Shown: positions 30,046-37,674 of the stretch, piece after piece
Layout of the letters: each line of letters begins with the position of its first letter
How positions within the stretch are numbered: the stretch's first letter is position 1
From: a bacterium
GTDB lineage: Bacteria; Lernaellota; Lernaellaia; JACKCT01
Length of the DNA: 37,825 nucleotides
Assembly (NCBI GenBank): GCA_019912885.1
Contig: JAIOHV010000043.1
Coordinates: forward strand, 1-37,825
Reading direction: 5' to 3'
Translations under genes and position numbers: made by a program
The notes under the pieces: generated by a model
What the model saw: only the letters and a program-made list of their open reading frames with translations
Databases searched by the model: none
What the model was told of the DNA's origin: nothing

Positions 30046-30056
30046 GCGGTGCGTTG

Positions 30057-30113
30057 GTCAACGGGCCCATGATGTCCATTCCGTCCATGATGTCCATCTT
30101 GTCCATCCGCGGA
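30057..30113. repeat. Nine-nucleotide-periodic GTCCAT repeat
   Basis: GTCCAT recurs at 9-nt steps (GATGTCCATTCCGTCCATGA and onwards). This is the reverse complement of the ATGGAC tracts at 10451-10497 and 18136-18215; a fourth lies at 33660-33705. Confidence 0.75.
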
Positions 30114-33171: not shown

Positions 33172-33585
33172 ATGCTCTTTTCGGGTCTAGAACGGTATCG
33201 CGATTTCGGATTGTTCATCCTGCGCGCCGGCGTGGGCGCCATGTTCGTGACGCACGGGTTTCCCAAACTCGAAGGCGGGCCGGAACTTTGGGCGAAGGTC
33301 GGCGGCGCGATGGCCAACATCGGCATCGACTTCGGGCATACCGCGTTCGGCCTCGCGGCCGCGCTGACCGAGTGTCTGGGCGGCATCGCGTTGATTCTCG
33401 GCCTCGGCACGCGCGTCGCCGCGTTGTTCCTTGCGTTCGTGATGGGGATCGCGGCGACGCACCATCTGTCGCGCGGGGACGGGCTGGCCGGCGCTTCACA
33501 CGCGATCGAGCTTGGCGTCGTTTTCCTCGCGCTATTCGTCATCGGCGCCGGGTCGTACAGCGTGGACGCGAAACTCGGAAAATAG
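33172..33585 (+). CDS. DoxX family membrane protein
   Basis: This 137-residue protein has four hydrophobic helices with DoxX landmarks: LFILRAGVGAMFVTHGFPKL in helix 1, ALTECLGGIALILGLGTRVAALFLAFVMG in helices 2-3 and HAIELGVVFLALFVIGAGSYSVD at the end. DoxX proteins are small inner-membrane proteins linked to quinone or thiosulfate metabolism or to redox stress; the role is not set by this context. GGGGAGG about 7 nt before the ATG fixes the start. It is divergent from cstA, with about 185 bp between them. Confidence 0.9.
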   Translation: MLFSGLERYRDFGLFILRAGVGAMFVTHGFPKLEGGPELWAKVGGAMANIGIDFGHTAFGLAAALTECLGGIALILGLGTRVAALFLAFVMGIAATHHLSRGDGLAGASHAIELGVVFLALFVIGAGSYSVDAKLGK

Positions 33586-33593
33586 CGCGCCTC

Positions 33594-33705
33594 CGGCGAT
33601 GTCGGTGCCGCAAACACCGCGCGGCGCTCGGCGCCGCCGTGCCCGTGACGTTGTTTGCATCCGCCCATCACGTCCATTCGGTCCATGATGTCCATGCGTC
33701 CATCG
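33594..33705. repeat. Post-gene GCGATGTC box and hairpin, then GTCCAT-periodic tract
   Basis: GCGATGTCGGTGCCGCAAAC (about 33596-33615) is followed by a 7-bp hairpin (GCGGCGC-TCG-GCGCCGC, 33621-33637). The same box (GCGATGTCAGGGCCGCAAAC) precedes a hairpin after the gene ending at 37674. 33660-33705 is a nine-nucleotide GTCCAT tract. No gene is present. Confidence 0.7.
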
Positions 33706-33745
33706 CCATTCGGCGGATTTGCCGGTCGTCCGAGGGATTTTGAAT

Positions 33746-33785
33746 AAAAAAAAAGCGATACCGGAGGGGCAAAAACCGGTATCGC
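33746..33785 (-). terminator. Intrinsic terminator of the small RNA
   Basis: On the minus strand a 10-bp perfect stem is followed by nine T (33754-33746). On the plus strand the hairpin is not followed by T, so it acts on minus-strand transcripts only. No annotated minus-strand gene lies upstream of it. Confidence 0.93.
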
Positions 33786-33836
33786 GAGAGGAGATTTGCC
33801 CTGCCGCGAAACCGCTAAGTTCCGGGCAATCGCAAG
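33746..33836 (-). ncRNA. Candidate sigma-54-dependent small RNA, about 90 nt
   Basis: The predicted RNA starts near 33836, 12 nt after a sigma-54 -12 element, and ends in a run of nine U. It has a 5' stem-loop (TTGCCC at 33829-33824 with GGGCAA at 33801-33796), a predicted single-stranded linker ATCTCCTCTC (33795-33786), and a terminator hairpin of 10 perfect base pairs (GCGATACCGG/CCGGTATCGC, 33785-33755, 11-nt loop). The linker is complementary to GAGGAG-type ribosome binding sites. This is the common layout of Hfq-type trans-acting small RNAs, and sigma-54-driven small RNAs are known (Qrr in Vibrio, Pxr in Myxococcus). No known family is recognised. Confidence 0.72.
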
Positions 33837-33846
33837 GATAACTATG

Positions 33847-33862
33847 AGCAAGTCCCGTGCCC
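33847..33862 (-). promoter_or_regulatory. Sigma-54 (RpoN) promoter
   Basis: The minus strand reads GGGCACGGGACTTGCT. GG (33861-33860) and GC (33849-33848) have the required 10-bp spacing, and GGCACG-N4-TTGCT matches the consensus except for G in place of T at the -26 position. No protein-coding gene follows it on this strand before the terminator at 33785. Confidence 0.82.
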
Positions 33863-33900: not shown

Positions 33901-34073
33901 CTTGGCAATTCAACGATTTTGGACGGCACCCGTTAGCGCGACAGATTTCTGAAAAACCGTGACGAAAATTCAAGATTCCTCGCCCCGCGACGTGCGCGTC
34001 GTCTTGACCGTGACCGCCTGTGCGCGGACACTCGGAACAACGTGAATCCCCATTTTCCCGGAGCGCCTTGCCG

Positions 34074-35648
34074 ATGACGCACGCCCTGCGCCTTGCTTTC
34101 GCGGTGACTTTCGCGACCCTCGCCGTGCTGGCCCTTGCCGCCCCCGTCTCCGCCCGCACCGTCATTTATTACGACGACGCCGGCGGCGACACCGACGGCA
34201 TCACCATGTCCAACATGTTCCTCAACATGATCGGGCACTTCGACCCGGACGTTTCGACCGCGCCCATCGACGAATTCGCGGGTGCCGGCGCGGGCGATTT
34301 CGTCGTTTATATCGGCCATCAGGACGAATCCGGCCTGTCGGACGACTTTCTGGAAACCGTCGTATCCGGCGAGGTCCGCACGCTGTGGATCTACAACAAT
34401 TTCTGGAAACTGGCCGAGGTCGAAGGCAGCGAGGCGATCGGGTTTTCCGTCGATGACTGGATCGAAAACGACGGCCGCGACGCGATCCGATACGGCCATC
34501 ACACCGTCGAGCGCAAAATCGACCTGTCCTACTACAACGTCAACGTGACGGGCGAACATGTGAAGGTGCACTCCACCCTGACGTCGCTTGACGGCGCCGA
34601 ACAGCGCCCGCACTTCCTTTGCGGCAACAACGTCTGCTTTTTGTCGGAGATGCCGTTTTTCGCCGAGGGCGTGGACGAGCGCCTGTTCGTGCTCGCGGAT
34701 TGCCTGCACGAGTTCTACGAGACCGGCGCGCCGGCCGAGCGCCTCGCGATGATCCGCGTCGAGGACCTCTCGCCTGGTTTTGTCAGCCCCACGCGCCTCG
34801 TGGCGCTCGCCGACGAACTCGCGGCACGCGACGTGCCGTTCGGCTTCGGCGTCATCCCCGTCACGCGCGACCCGATCGGACTGTATTTCGGCGGTGTGGA
34901 CACCACGCTGACGCTCGCGGACGACCCCGATTTCCTTATCGCAATCGACCACATGATGGCGCGCGGCGGCACGATGGCGATGCACGGCTATACGCACCAG
35001 AACGGCGACGGCATCACCGCGCACGACTGGGAGTTCGTCGAAAATCTCGACAACGACCCCCTGCCGCAAGATTCCGGGGACTGGGTGCGCGACCGCGTTA
35101 CGAAGGGCCTCGCCGAGCTTTGGAGCGAGGGATACGAGCCGCTGATCTGGGAGACGCCGCACTACGGCGCCTCGCACGGCGCGTTCGGCGTGTTCGCGGA
35201 ATATTTCGATACCTACTGGGACCGGCCGCTCATTTTCCCGTTCCGCCCCGGCGCCGAGGGCGTGTTCGGCGAGGATATCGAGCCACTCTCGCAGATCGTC
35301 TATCAATACACCCCCGTCAGCGTGTACGGCATGGGCATCATCCCGGAAACGCTTGGCCTCATCGATCCCGCGGATGTCGCCGGATCGGCGCAGGCGATGC
35401 TCGATCGCGCCGAACGCATGACCATCATCCGCGACGGCGTCGCGTCGTTTTTCTTCCACCACGGCTCGATCGAAAACGAAGACATCCTCGCGCTCGTCGA
35501 TGAGTTCCTCGATCGCGGCTATCGCTTCGTCTCGCCGGAGGAATACGCCGGCGACGACGGCATGGACGGGCAGGAAGCGCCGGAGGACTTCGGCGATGAG
35601 GATGCCGGCGACGACGACGATGACGACTCGGGAGGCTGCGGCTGGTGA
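34074..35648 (+). CDS. DUF2334 (YdaL-like) polysaccharide-deacetylase-type protein, catalytic copy
   Basis: This 524-residue protein has a signal peptide (1-27, ending PVSA). Its catalytic region resembles the DUF2334 branch of carbohydrate esterase 4-like deacetylases: E230-D231 (IRVEDLSP), HGYTH with H304 and H308, WETPHY (359-364, H363) and FFFHHG (H462/H463), all plausible metal or catalytic residues. The last 30 residues are acidic (six Asp in a row) and end SGGCGW. Deacetylases of this branch modify exported polysaccharide. The frame is open to 34020; ATG 34074 with GGAG upstream begins the signal peptide. A paralogue follows 247 bp downstream, so they arose by duplication. Confidence 0.85.
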   Translation: MTHALRLAFAVTFATLAVLALAAPVSARTVIYYDDAGGDTDGITMSNMFLNMIGHFDPDVSTAPIDEFAGAGAGDFVVYIGHQDESGLSDDFLETVVSGEVRTLWIYNNFWKLAEVEGSEAIGFSVDDWIENDGRDAIRYGHHTVERKIDLSYYNVNVTGEHVKVHSTLTSLDGAEQRPHFLCGNNVCFLSEMPFFAEGVDERLFVLADCLHEFYETGAPAERLAMIRVEDLSPGFVSPTRLVALADELAARDVPFGFGVIPVTRDPIGLYFGGVDTTLTLADDPDFLIAIDHMMARGGTMAMHGYTHQNGDGITAHDWEFVENLDNDPLPQDSGDWVRDRVTKGLAELWSEGYEPLIWETPHYGASHGAFGVFAEYFDTYWDRPLIFPFRPGAEGVFGEDIEPLSQIVYQYTPVSVYGMGIIPETLGLIDPADVAGSAQAMLDRAERMTIIRDGVASFFFHHGSIENEDILALVDEFLDRGYRFVSPEEYAGDDGMDGQEAPEDFGDEDAGDDDDDDSGGCGW

Positions 35649-35786: not shown

Positions 35787-35895
35787 GCCGGACTAACTCT
35801 TCGATGAACTTCCAGCCTTTCAGCCTGTTCTCGACCGCTTTCCGCTCATGATCGAAGCGGATAATCCGATAGGTAGAGACAGGAAGGAAACGACC

Positions 35896-37674
35896 ATGAA
35901 ACGCACTTGCGCCCAAATCTTCTTCACGGTTTTCGTTGCCGTGGCGGCCCTTGGCCTTGCCGCTGCGCCCGCCCAGGCCAAGTCCGTCATCTATTACGAC
36001 GGCACGGCCAGCTCCGGGCAGGGCGTTCTGATCGCCAACATGACCTACAACCTCGTCGGGCATTTTGACCCGGACACGGTCACGATCGACGTCGCGGGAT
36101 ACACGCTTGGCGACATGATCGCGTACGAACACGTGCTCTACGTGGACGATCACGGCGGAAACCTCGTGCCCGGCGCATTTCTGGAGGACGTCGGCAGCGG
36201 CGTGCACCGCGTCATGTGGATCGGCGCCGATTTCGAACAGCTCTGGGAATACTGGGAAACCACCGCGCCGTTCGGCTTTCGCGGAACGGGCTACGACGAC
36301 GGCGACGGCGAGGATGCGATCCTCTACAAGGGCCGCGCCGTGCCCCGCGACGAGGAATATTCCTACTTCGGCGTCGAGATCGACGGCGCCGTCGATGTCT
36401 ATTCCTGGATGACGTACGCAAGCGATCCGGACGAAGATGTCCCGCACTTCCTTTGCGGCGGCAACCTGTGTTTCTTCGCCGAGATCCCGTTCTACTTCGA
36501 AGGCCAGGATGACCGAATGCTCGTGCTCGCCGACGTGCTGCACGAGTTCTACCAGACCGGCGTCGCCCCGAGCCGCCGCGCGATGGTGCGTTTCTACGAG
36601 ATGGCCCCGGTCGTCACCGATTCGCCGAACCTCGTCACGCTCACCGCGGGCCTCGCGTCGCGCAACGTGCCGTTTTCCGTGTCCGTCATCGCGGTCTACA
36701 AGGACCCGCAGGCGTGGACGTGGCCGACCCCCGTCGAGTTCCATTTCGACGACGATCCCGCGCTTGTCACGCTGCTGCACGACGTGGTCGATAACGGCGC
36801 GATCCTGACCATGCTCGGTATCACGCACCAGAACGATTTCGACAACGGCACGACGGGCGATCCGGAATTCGTCATCAACGGCTACGCGCTCCCGCTACCG
36901 TTCGACTCCGACGTGTTCGTGCGTGACCGCATCGAGTGGGGCCTGTCCGAATATCACGACCAGGGCCTTGAACCGGTCGTGTGGGAGACGCCGTGGCATC
37001 TGGCGAGCCAGGGCGACTACTCCGTGTTCGCGGAATTTTTCGACTACTACCTCGACCAGCCGCTCGTGTTCCCGTATCCCATCGACGGCGCGCCGCAGTT
37101 CGCAACCGAGTTTGGCATCACCCTCACACAGACGATCCCGTTCGAGTCGACCGTGGGAAGTTCCGGCCTTGGCATCGTGCCGTCGAACATGGGCTGCCTG
37201 TTCCCGGGCCTTCCCGGCTACGACGTTGAGGACATCCTCGACCAGGCCTACCGCCTGTCGATCGTGCGCGACGTGGTCGCGTCGTTTTGCGCGTATTCGA
37301 ACGTCGATTTCGACACGCTGATGGGCCTTGTCGACGACATCACCGACGAAGGTTTCGAGTGGGTCGATCCGGGCGACATTGTCGATCTCACCGGCGACGA
37401 CGACGATGACGACGCCGCGGACGACGACGCGGCGGATGACGACATGGACGATGACGCCGCCGATGACGACATGGACGATGATGCGGCCGATGACGACATG
37501 GACGACGACACGGACGACGATGCCGGCGACGACGACAGTTTCGATGACGACAATTTCGGCGATGACGATGCCGGGGACGACGACGATGCCGGCGATGGCG
37601 GCCTCGGCGCTGACGCGGATGATGACGATGACGACGACGGACTGCTGAGCGGCGGCTGCGGCTGCGGCTGCTGA
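35896..37674 (+). CDS. DUF2334-like paralogue, probable pseudoenzyme, with long Asp-rich, Cys-capped tail
   Basis: This 592-residue protein has a signal peptide (1-28, PAQA). It aligns along its length with the preceding gene (HFDPD near 56-60, HFLCGGNLCFFAEIPF, ADVLHEFYQTG). The presumed catalytic residues differ: IRVEDLSP is VRFYEMAP (D231 becomes E235), MHGYTH is MLGITH (H304 becomes L307), ETPHYG is ETPWHL (H363 becomes W367) and FHHGS is CAYSN (both His lost). Residues 501-583 are an Asp/Ala/Met-rich tail with the repeating unit DDDMDDDAA, and the end is GGCGCGC. AGGAAGG about 8 nt before the ATG sets the start. It is likely a surface glycan-binding or scaffold protein, not an enzyme. 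Confidence 0.82.
   Translation: MKRTCAQIFFTVFVAVAALGLAAAPAQAKSVIYYDGTASSGQGVLIANMTYNLVGHFDPDTVTIDVAGYTLGDMIAYEHVLYVDDHGGNLVPGAFLEDVGSGVHRVMWIGADFEQLWEYWETTAPFGFRGTGYDDGDGEDAILYKGRAVPRDEEYSYFGVEIDGAVDVYSWMTYASDPDEDVPHFLCGGNLCFFAEIPFYFEGQDDRMLVLADVLHEFYQTGVAPSRRAMVRFYEMAPVVTDSPNLVTLTAGLASRNVPFSVSVIAVYKDPQAWTWPTPVEFHFDDDPALVTLLHDVVDNGAILTMLGITHQNDFDNGTTGDPEFVINGYALPLPFDSDVFVRDRIEWGLSEYHDQGLEPVVWETPWHLASQGDYSVFAEFFDYYLDQPLVFPYPIDGAPQFATEFGITLTQTIPFESTVGSSGLGIVPSNMGCLFPGLPGYDVEDILDQAYRLSIVRDVVASFCAYSNVDFDTLMGLVDDITDEGFEWVDPGDIVDLTGDDDDDDAADDDAADDDMDDDAADDDMDDDAADDDMDDDTDDDAGDDDSFDDDNFGDDDAGDDDDAGDGGLGADADDDDDDDGLLSGGCGCGC

Follow-up and report, generated by a model that had tools for sequence, protein, structure and literature searches.

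A conserved small RNA family with a sigma-54-type promoter and a putative anti-Shine-Dalgarno linker in the phylum Lernaellota

The Qrr small RNAs (sRNAs) of Vibrio, which are controlled by sigma-54 together with a LuxO-type activator, are trans-acting RNAs of the Hfq type. Other sRNAs titrate proteins, as CrcZ does with Hfq/Crc and RsmZ with CsrA, and the C-rich sRNAs of Firmicutes (RsaE/RoxS, IsrR and LhrC) direct C-rich unpaired seeds against Shine-Dalgarno (SD) sequences. In Pseudomonas, CrcZ and CrcY are transcribed from RpoN promoters and activated by the enhancer-binding protein CbrB (PMC8657755), and the rhizobial AbcR1/2 repress translation through the anti-SD motifs CUCCUCCC and UUCCCCUC, which pair with ribosome-binding sites (PMC8844928). 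Here we describe what appears to be a further case, outside Vibrio and Pseudomonas, of an sRNA commanded by sigma-54 and an enhancer-binding protein. The RNA is encoded in the window, that is, the whole stretch of 37,825 nt analyzed here (contig C43 of a 4.8-Mb draft genome, G000), and was compared among draft genomes, one per species (n=7), of FEN-1099, which we take to be the phylum Ca. Lernaellota. This phylum is poorly studied and known mainly from assembled metagenomes; the RNA is apparently the first regulatory family in it for which promoter, activator site and pairing motif have been deduced, and a concrete regulatory circuit can now be tested there.

Compared with the described systems, the Lernaellota RNA resembles AbcR1/AbcR2 (alpha-r15) and NfeR1 (alpha-r14) in its length of about 100 nt, its terminator and its unpaired anti-SD motifs, and CUCCUCCC and UUCCCCUC of AbcR1/2 are much like its CUCCUCUC and GCCCC (PMC8844928). 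However, those RNAs are alphaproteobacterial and under LsrB or RpoH1 control rather than that of sigma-54, whereas the Lernaellota RNA matches no Rfam model. The Pseudomonas CrcZ/CrcY/CrcX share the RpoN and enhancer-binding-protein control proposed here, but they titrate Hfq/Crc through motifs not seen in the Lernaellota RNA, which again has no Rfam match. The Qrr RNAs differ in occurring in several copies rather than one and in having another seed and another activator site, while RsaE/RoxS, IsrR and LhrC have other seeds, other sigma factors and unrelated sequence. By analogy, the control of the Lernaellota RNA would thus be like that of CrcZ/CrcY and Qrr and its seed like that of AbcR/NfeR1, and no common descent is claimed for these likenesses.

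The whole element occupies the minus strand at 33862-33746 and extends from an RpoN box to a terminator with nine T. Its sigma-54 (RpoN) promoter, GGCACGGGACTTGCT (33861-33847, minus), has the −24 GG at 33861-33860 and the −12 GC at 33849-33848; it contains GG-N10-GC and shows a single departure from TGGCACG-N4-TTGCW, a T to G change before the GG. From about 12 bases 3′ of this box to the terminator, the sequence has no usable open frame, as the original prediction had described it, both for the position of the promoter and for the lack of a frame between promoter and terminator. Since the 5′ end is expected from the −12 element to lie near 33840-33836 (minus), the predicted RNA would be about 91-95 nt long, and it was delimited at 33838-33746 (minus; about 92 nt, ending at the last T). 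Its predicted minimum free energy (MFE) fold has −37 kcal/mol, with z = −4.0 compared with shuffles, and comprises a predicted 5′ stem-loop domain (33835-33796, minus), a linker AATCTCCTCTC (33796-33786, minus) and an intrinsic terminator hairpin (33785-33755, minus). The terminator stem is a perfect 10 bp helix (33785-33776 with 33764-33755) closed by an 11-nt loop, TTTTTGCCCCT, with GCCCC at 33770-33766, and is followed by the nine T at 33754-33746 that had been predicted as its U tail. Six of its pairs were found altered on both sides with pairing kept among the six sequences available. Of the two stems originally proposed, the terminator is therefore backed by covariation; the 5′ stem is predicted for every sequence of the window's own family and drawn differently in the second family, and no compensatory changes supporting it were found among the compared homologues.

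A covariance model (R1) found one strong copy of the RNA per genome, at 76-89 bits, in six of the seven Lernaellota genomes, with the window matched at 33811-33746 (minus; 84 bits), and nothing like the RNA in the seventh genome (G003). A DNA search of 60 relatives matched two further genera of the window's family with E = 4e-23 and 6e-22, at 86-88% identity across the RNA and without alignment beyond the element; in three genomes of another family, the alignments were weak and always fell on query positions 90-118. Side by side, all six loci displayed a common layout, in which an RpoN box GGC[AG]-N6-TTGCT, kept at a fixed distance from the RNA in every homologue, is followed by a spacer, GYARGGCMAATCTCCTCTC and the terminator hairpin with a GCCC(C) loop, and conservation ends at the T tract. 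The linker AATCTCCTCTC was invariant across all six, which come from two families with three genera each, while the 3′ tail, nine T in the window, is T-poor in G004 and G005. The original prediction had been staked on relatives conserving promoter spacing, linker and stems; this held in six of seven genomes for the RpoN box, AATCTCCTCTC and the covarying terminator stem, and the covariance search that the prediction had suggested yielded the six copies.

Outside the phylum, the covariance model gave a best match of 23.7 bits among 386 genomes, which is unconvincing as a homologue, and the weak matches in G236, G145 and G101 have the appearance of coding DNA or of an unrelated terminator. A pattern scan of a species-genome collection matched two members of the phylum and one Rhodobacteraceae sequence, which reads as coding DNA and was taken as chance, and a scan of viral contigs for the element gave no match. 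In Rfam 15, no sRNA family scored above its gathering score for the RNA, the weak matches at a permissive threshold (E up to 5) being only microRNA models and CC0196 in a flank; together with the lack of any description in the literature searched, this bears out that the RNA was undescribed. The family thus appears confined, as far as testable, to one phylum. From these sequence comparisons, we conclude that the window holds a real sRNA gene, whose family is new within a known kind of RNA, and that the conserved element, with its promoter, upstream site, linker and terminator, is supported by comparison; its transcription, the identity of its activator, the binding of Hfq, the pairing with targets and the outcome of that pairing are inferred.

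The upstream site is a candidate binding site (UAS) for an enhancer-binding protein, a near-palindrome TCAGAAATCTGA or TCGGATTTCTGA upstream of the RNA promoter. In the window it reads TCAGAAATCTGT (33952-33941, minus), starting 89 bp 5′ of the promoter 17-mer. In each of the six genomes with the RNA, a UAS-like motif precedes the RpoN box by 87-108 bp, its start lying 89 (G000), 108 (G001), 90 (G006), 100 (G005) and 100 bp (G004) from the promoter. The sixth genome, G002 (C22, L035:6946-7936), carries a 991-bp IS630-type element with transposase genes, flanked by TA and with inverted ends TAGAGCA(C/A)TTCACG, between candidate UAS and RNA promoter, immediately 5′ of the latter; after subtracting this insertion and joining the flanks, two diverged UAS copies (10/12 letters) lie at 87 and 107 bp, which makes this locus a natural experiment on whether the activator depends on its distance from the promoter. 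Across the seven genomes, the exact palindrome TCAGAAATCYGA was counted 13 times, compared with 0 for a reversed control word. The conserved site lends support to the dependence on an enhancer-binding protein that had been proposed, and it is probably the sigma-54 system that turns the RNA on.

Beyond the RNA loci, the UAS precedes strong RpoN boxes by 98 bp in G000 (C66, L040:1140-1450) and by 101 bp in G001 (C137, L045:2860-3290), where the promoters drive tiny signal-bearing lipoprotein genes whose products contain almost only Asp after the lipobox Cys, for example VACGDDDDDDDDDDDPADDD...; a possible third case of UAS, RpoN box and Asp-rich lipoprotein is G004:C16 (L074). In G003, which lacks the sRNA, a UAS lies 112 bp upstream of an RpoN box (C19, L047:2740 to about 2450, minus) that is followed by a strongly folded, apparently noncoding stretch and a terminator-like hairpin with a GCCCC loop, without the CUCCUC linker; this stretch is a candidate for a diverged counterpart of the RNA. 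Further UAS and RpoN matches (G003:C107; G006:C12, C235, C340, C56 and C351; G000:C144) had poor boxes, looked for the most part like coding DNA and were discarded. The distribution of UAS and RpoN boxes is in keeping with an enhancer-binding protein whose regulon is small. Relatives encode activators with a GAFTGA motif, and the neighbourhoods of the RNA that were examined contain only activator genes that are frame-broken or distant, which are unconvincing as the gene sought. Equally unconvincing as an activator gene is a fragment in G003 beside a broken P-II-like gene. This fragment (C109, L048:3210-3660) looks from its sequence like the C-terminal helix-turn-helix part of an enhancer-binding protein and abuts, in opposite orientation, the P-II-like protein fragment, with an RpoN box and a UAS alongside; the two may be either decayed genes or an assembly join.

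The linker sequence AAUCUCCUCUC is similar to the anti-SD end of 16S rRNA, and its complement is GAGAGGAG(AUU), an SD sequence. The linker is the longest invariant stretch predicted to be unpaired in the window RNA, where the predicted CTCCTC of the CU-rich linker was located at 33793-33788 (minus) inside the invariant AATCTCCTCTC; AATCTCCTCTC itself is unpaired in the MFE fold of the window RNA and partly paired in those of G004 and G005. Hfq is encoded in all seven Lernaellota genomes. Based on the complementarity between linker and SD sequence, the presence of Hfq and the likeness to the AbcR1/2 seeds, translational repression via the linker was taken as most likely, and the RNA probably silences mRNAs by covering their ribosome-binding sites (RBSs). 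No orthologous set common to the genomes compared emerged from the genes that have GAGAGGAG or AGAGGAGAT ahead of their start codon. Skp/OmpH, the sole promising cross-family pair, was rejected as a conserved target, having GAGAGGAG in two genomes only, and the other orthologues examined carry GAAAGGAG, AAGGAG and similar SD words. When duplex energies between linker and RBS were calculated for about 650 genes, the linker performed no better overall than its reverse in G002 and slightly better in G004, and the comparison was not significant. That the RNA would control many targets, as the original prediction had it, therefore keeps the standing of a proposal, the search for target sites conserved between genomes having given none.

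The lack of a conserved mRNA target would also suit an RNA that chiefly binds and titrates a protein, with the linker serving as a protein site instead of an mRNA-pairing seed; control by sigma-54 and an activator is shared with CrcZ/CrcY (PMC8657755), and a protein site could equally account for a linker that does not vary across both families, each represented by three genera. We nevertheless regard titration as unlikely, given that the conserved part of the RNA is without repeated GGA or AANAANAA-type motifs, that it offers a single CU-rich linker compared with the several sites of known sponges, and that this linker reads as a match to an SD sequence.

The genomic surroundings speak to whether the RNA belongs to a neighbouring gene. 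In the window it is flanked by a convergent and close DoxX gene (33172-33585, +), which could suggest a cis-antisense RNA of this neighbour or else a leader or attenuator of a downstream gene, and by a gene for a DUF2334 protein on the other side. Yet the downstream gene of the window is on the opposite strand, and other genes flank the RNA elsewhere: G001 has AIM24 and TerC, G002 an IS630-type transposase, G006 DprA and a PCC-domain protein, and G004 FtsK, upstream neighbours being common to G004 and G005 only. The flanking genes thus mostly differ, which identifies the RNA as a free-standing unit; as it is kept while its neighbours change (DoxX, TerC, DprA/PCC genes, FtsK) and its conservation stops at the T tract, a leader, attenuator or cis-antisense role is very unlikely. 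A short conserved peptide encoded on either strand is suggested by the plus-strand motif GAGAGGAGATT, which looks like a ribosome-binding site, but the triplet after it is CTG, TTG or TTA depending on the genome, so that no start codon is conserved; the minus strand lacks a conserved start as well, and the indels between the families are not multiples of three, leaving a small-protein gene highly improbable. As for a chance terminator behind a chance promoter with no gene at all, the RpoN box alone proves nothing, because three RpoN-type boxes (≤2 mismatches) were found in the window, compared with a mean of 5.4 in window shuffles. What is above chance in the sequence comparison is that five other genomes jointly keep the box, its spacing, the linker and the terminator. 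The chance reading is refuted by this conservation, including the intergeneric identity limited to the element and the recurrence of its architecture in a second family, and its probability is close to nil.

The explanation that we favor, and hold with considerable though not full confidence, is a trans-acting anti-SD sRNA of about 92 nt, expressed from a free-standing gene and induced by an enhancer-binding protein and sigma-54. An enhancer-binding protein bound at the TCAGAAATCTGA-like site, about 90-108 bp upstream, would activate RpoN-RNA polymerase at the GGCAC/TTGCT promoter, and transcription would stop at the GCCCC-loop terminator. The resulting RNA, probably together with Hfq, would present the invariant linker AAUCUCCUCUC for pairing with GAG(A)GGAG ribosome-binding sites, with the GCCCC loop as a possible second C-rich contact, and translation of a set of mRNAs would be lowered as long as the activator is on.

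A comparative study links sigma-54 to the control of the bacterial exterior, lipoproteins included (PMC3162934), which fits the finding of Asp-rich lipoprotein genes that apparently have the same activator site. Four genes with a GAGAGGAG RBS, in four genomes, encode Asp-rich lipoproteins, compared with a background of 10/657 (1.5%), an enrichment with P of about 0.005-0.01 that was calculated post hoc. The UAS before lipoprotein RpoN boxes (G000, G001 and possibly G004) and these GAGAGGAG-RBS lipoproteins together hint at a circuit, which we put forward as a speculative and rather improbable extension, in which one enhancer-binding protein would induce an Asp-rich surface lipoprotein together with an anti-SD sRNA that silences other Asp-rich lipoproteins; the direct comparison of linker-to-RBS energies was, as noted above, not significant. 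Such a circuit would be comparable in logic to sigmaE with MicL/Lpp and, if true, the lipoprotein/sRNA pair would constitute a surface-switching circuit of the phylum.

Two further features were observed in the window. The neighbouring open reading frames at 34020-35648 and 35848-37674 (+), the first encoding the DUF2334 protein and the second a protein of similar plan, both carry a long Asp-rich tail that leads into a Gly/Cys-rich end (SGGCGW, SGGCGCGC), and poly-Asp stretches are common in Lernaellota. Short degenerate repeats of the type GTCCATNATGTCCAT are found at 33660-33710 and 30054-30110.
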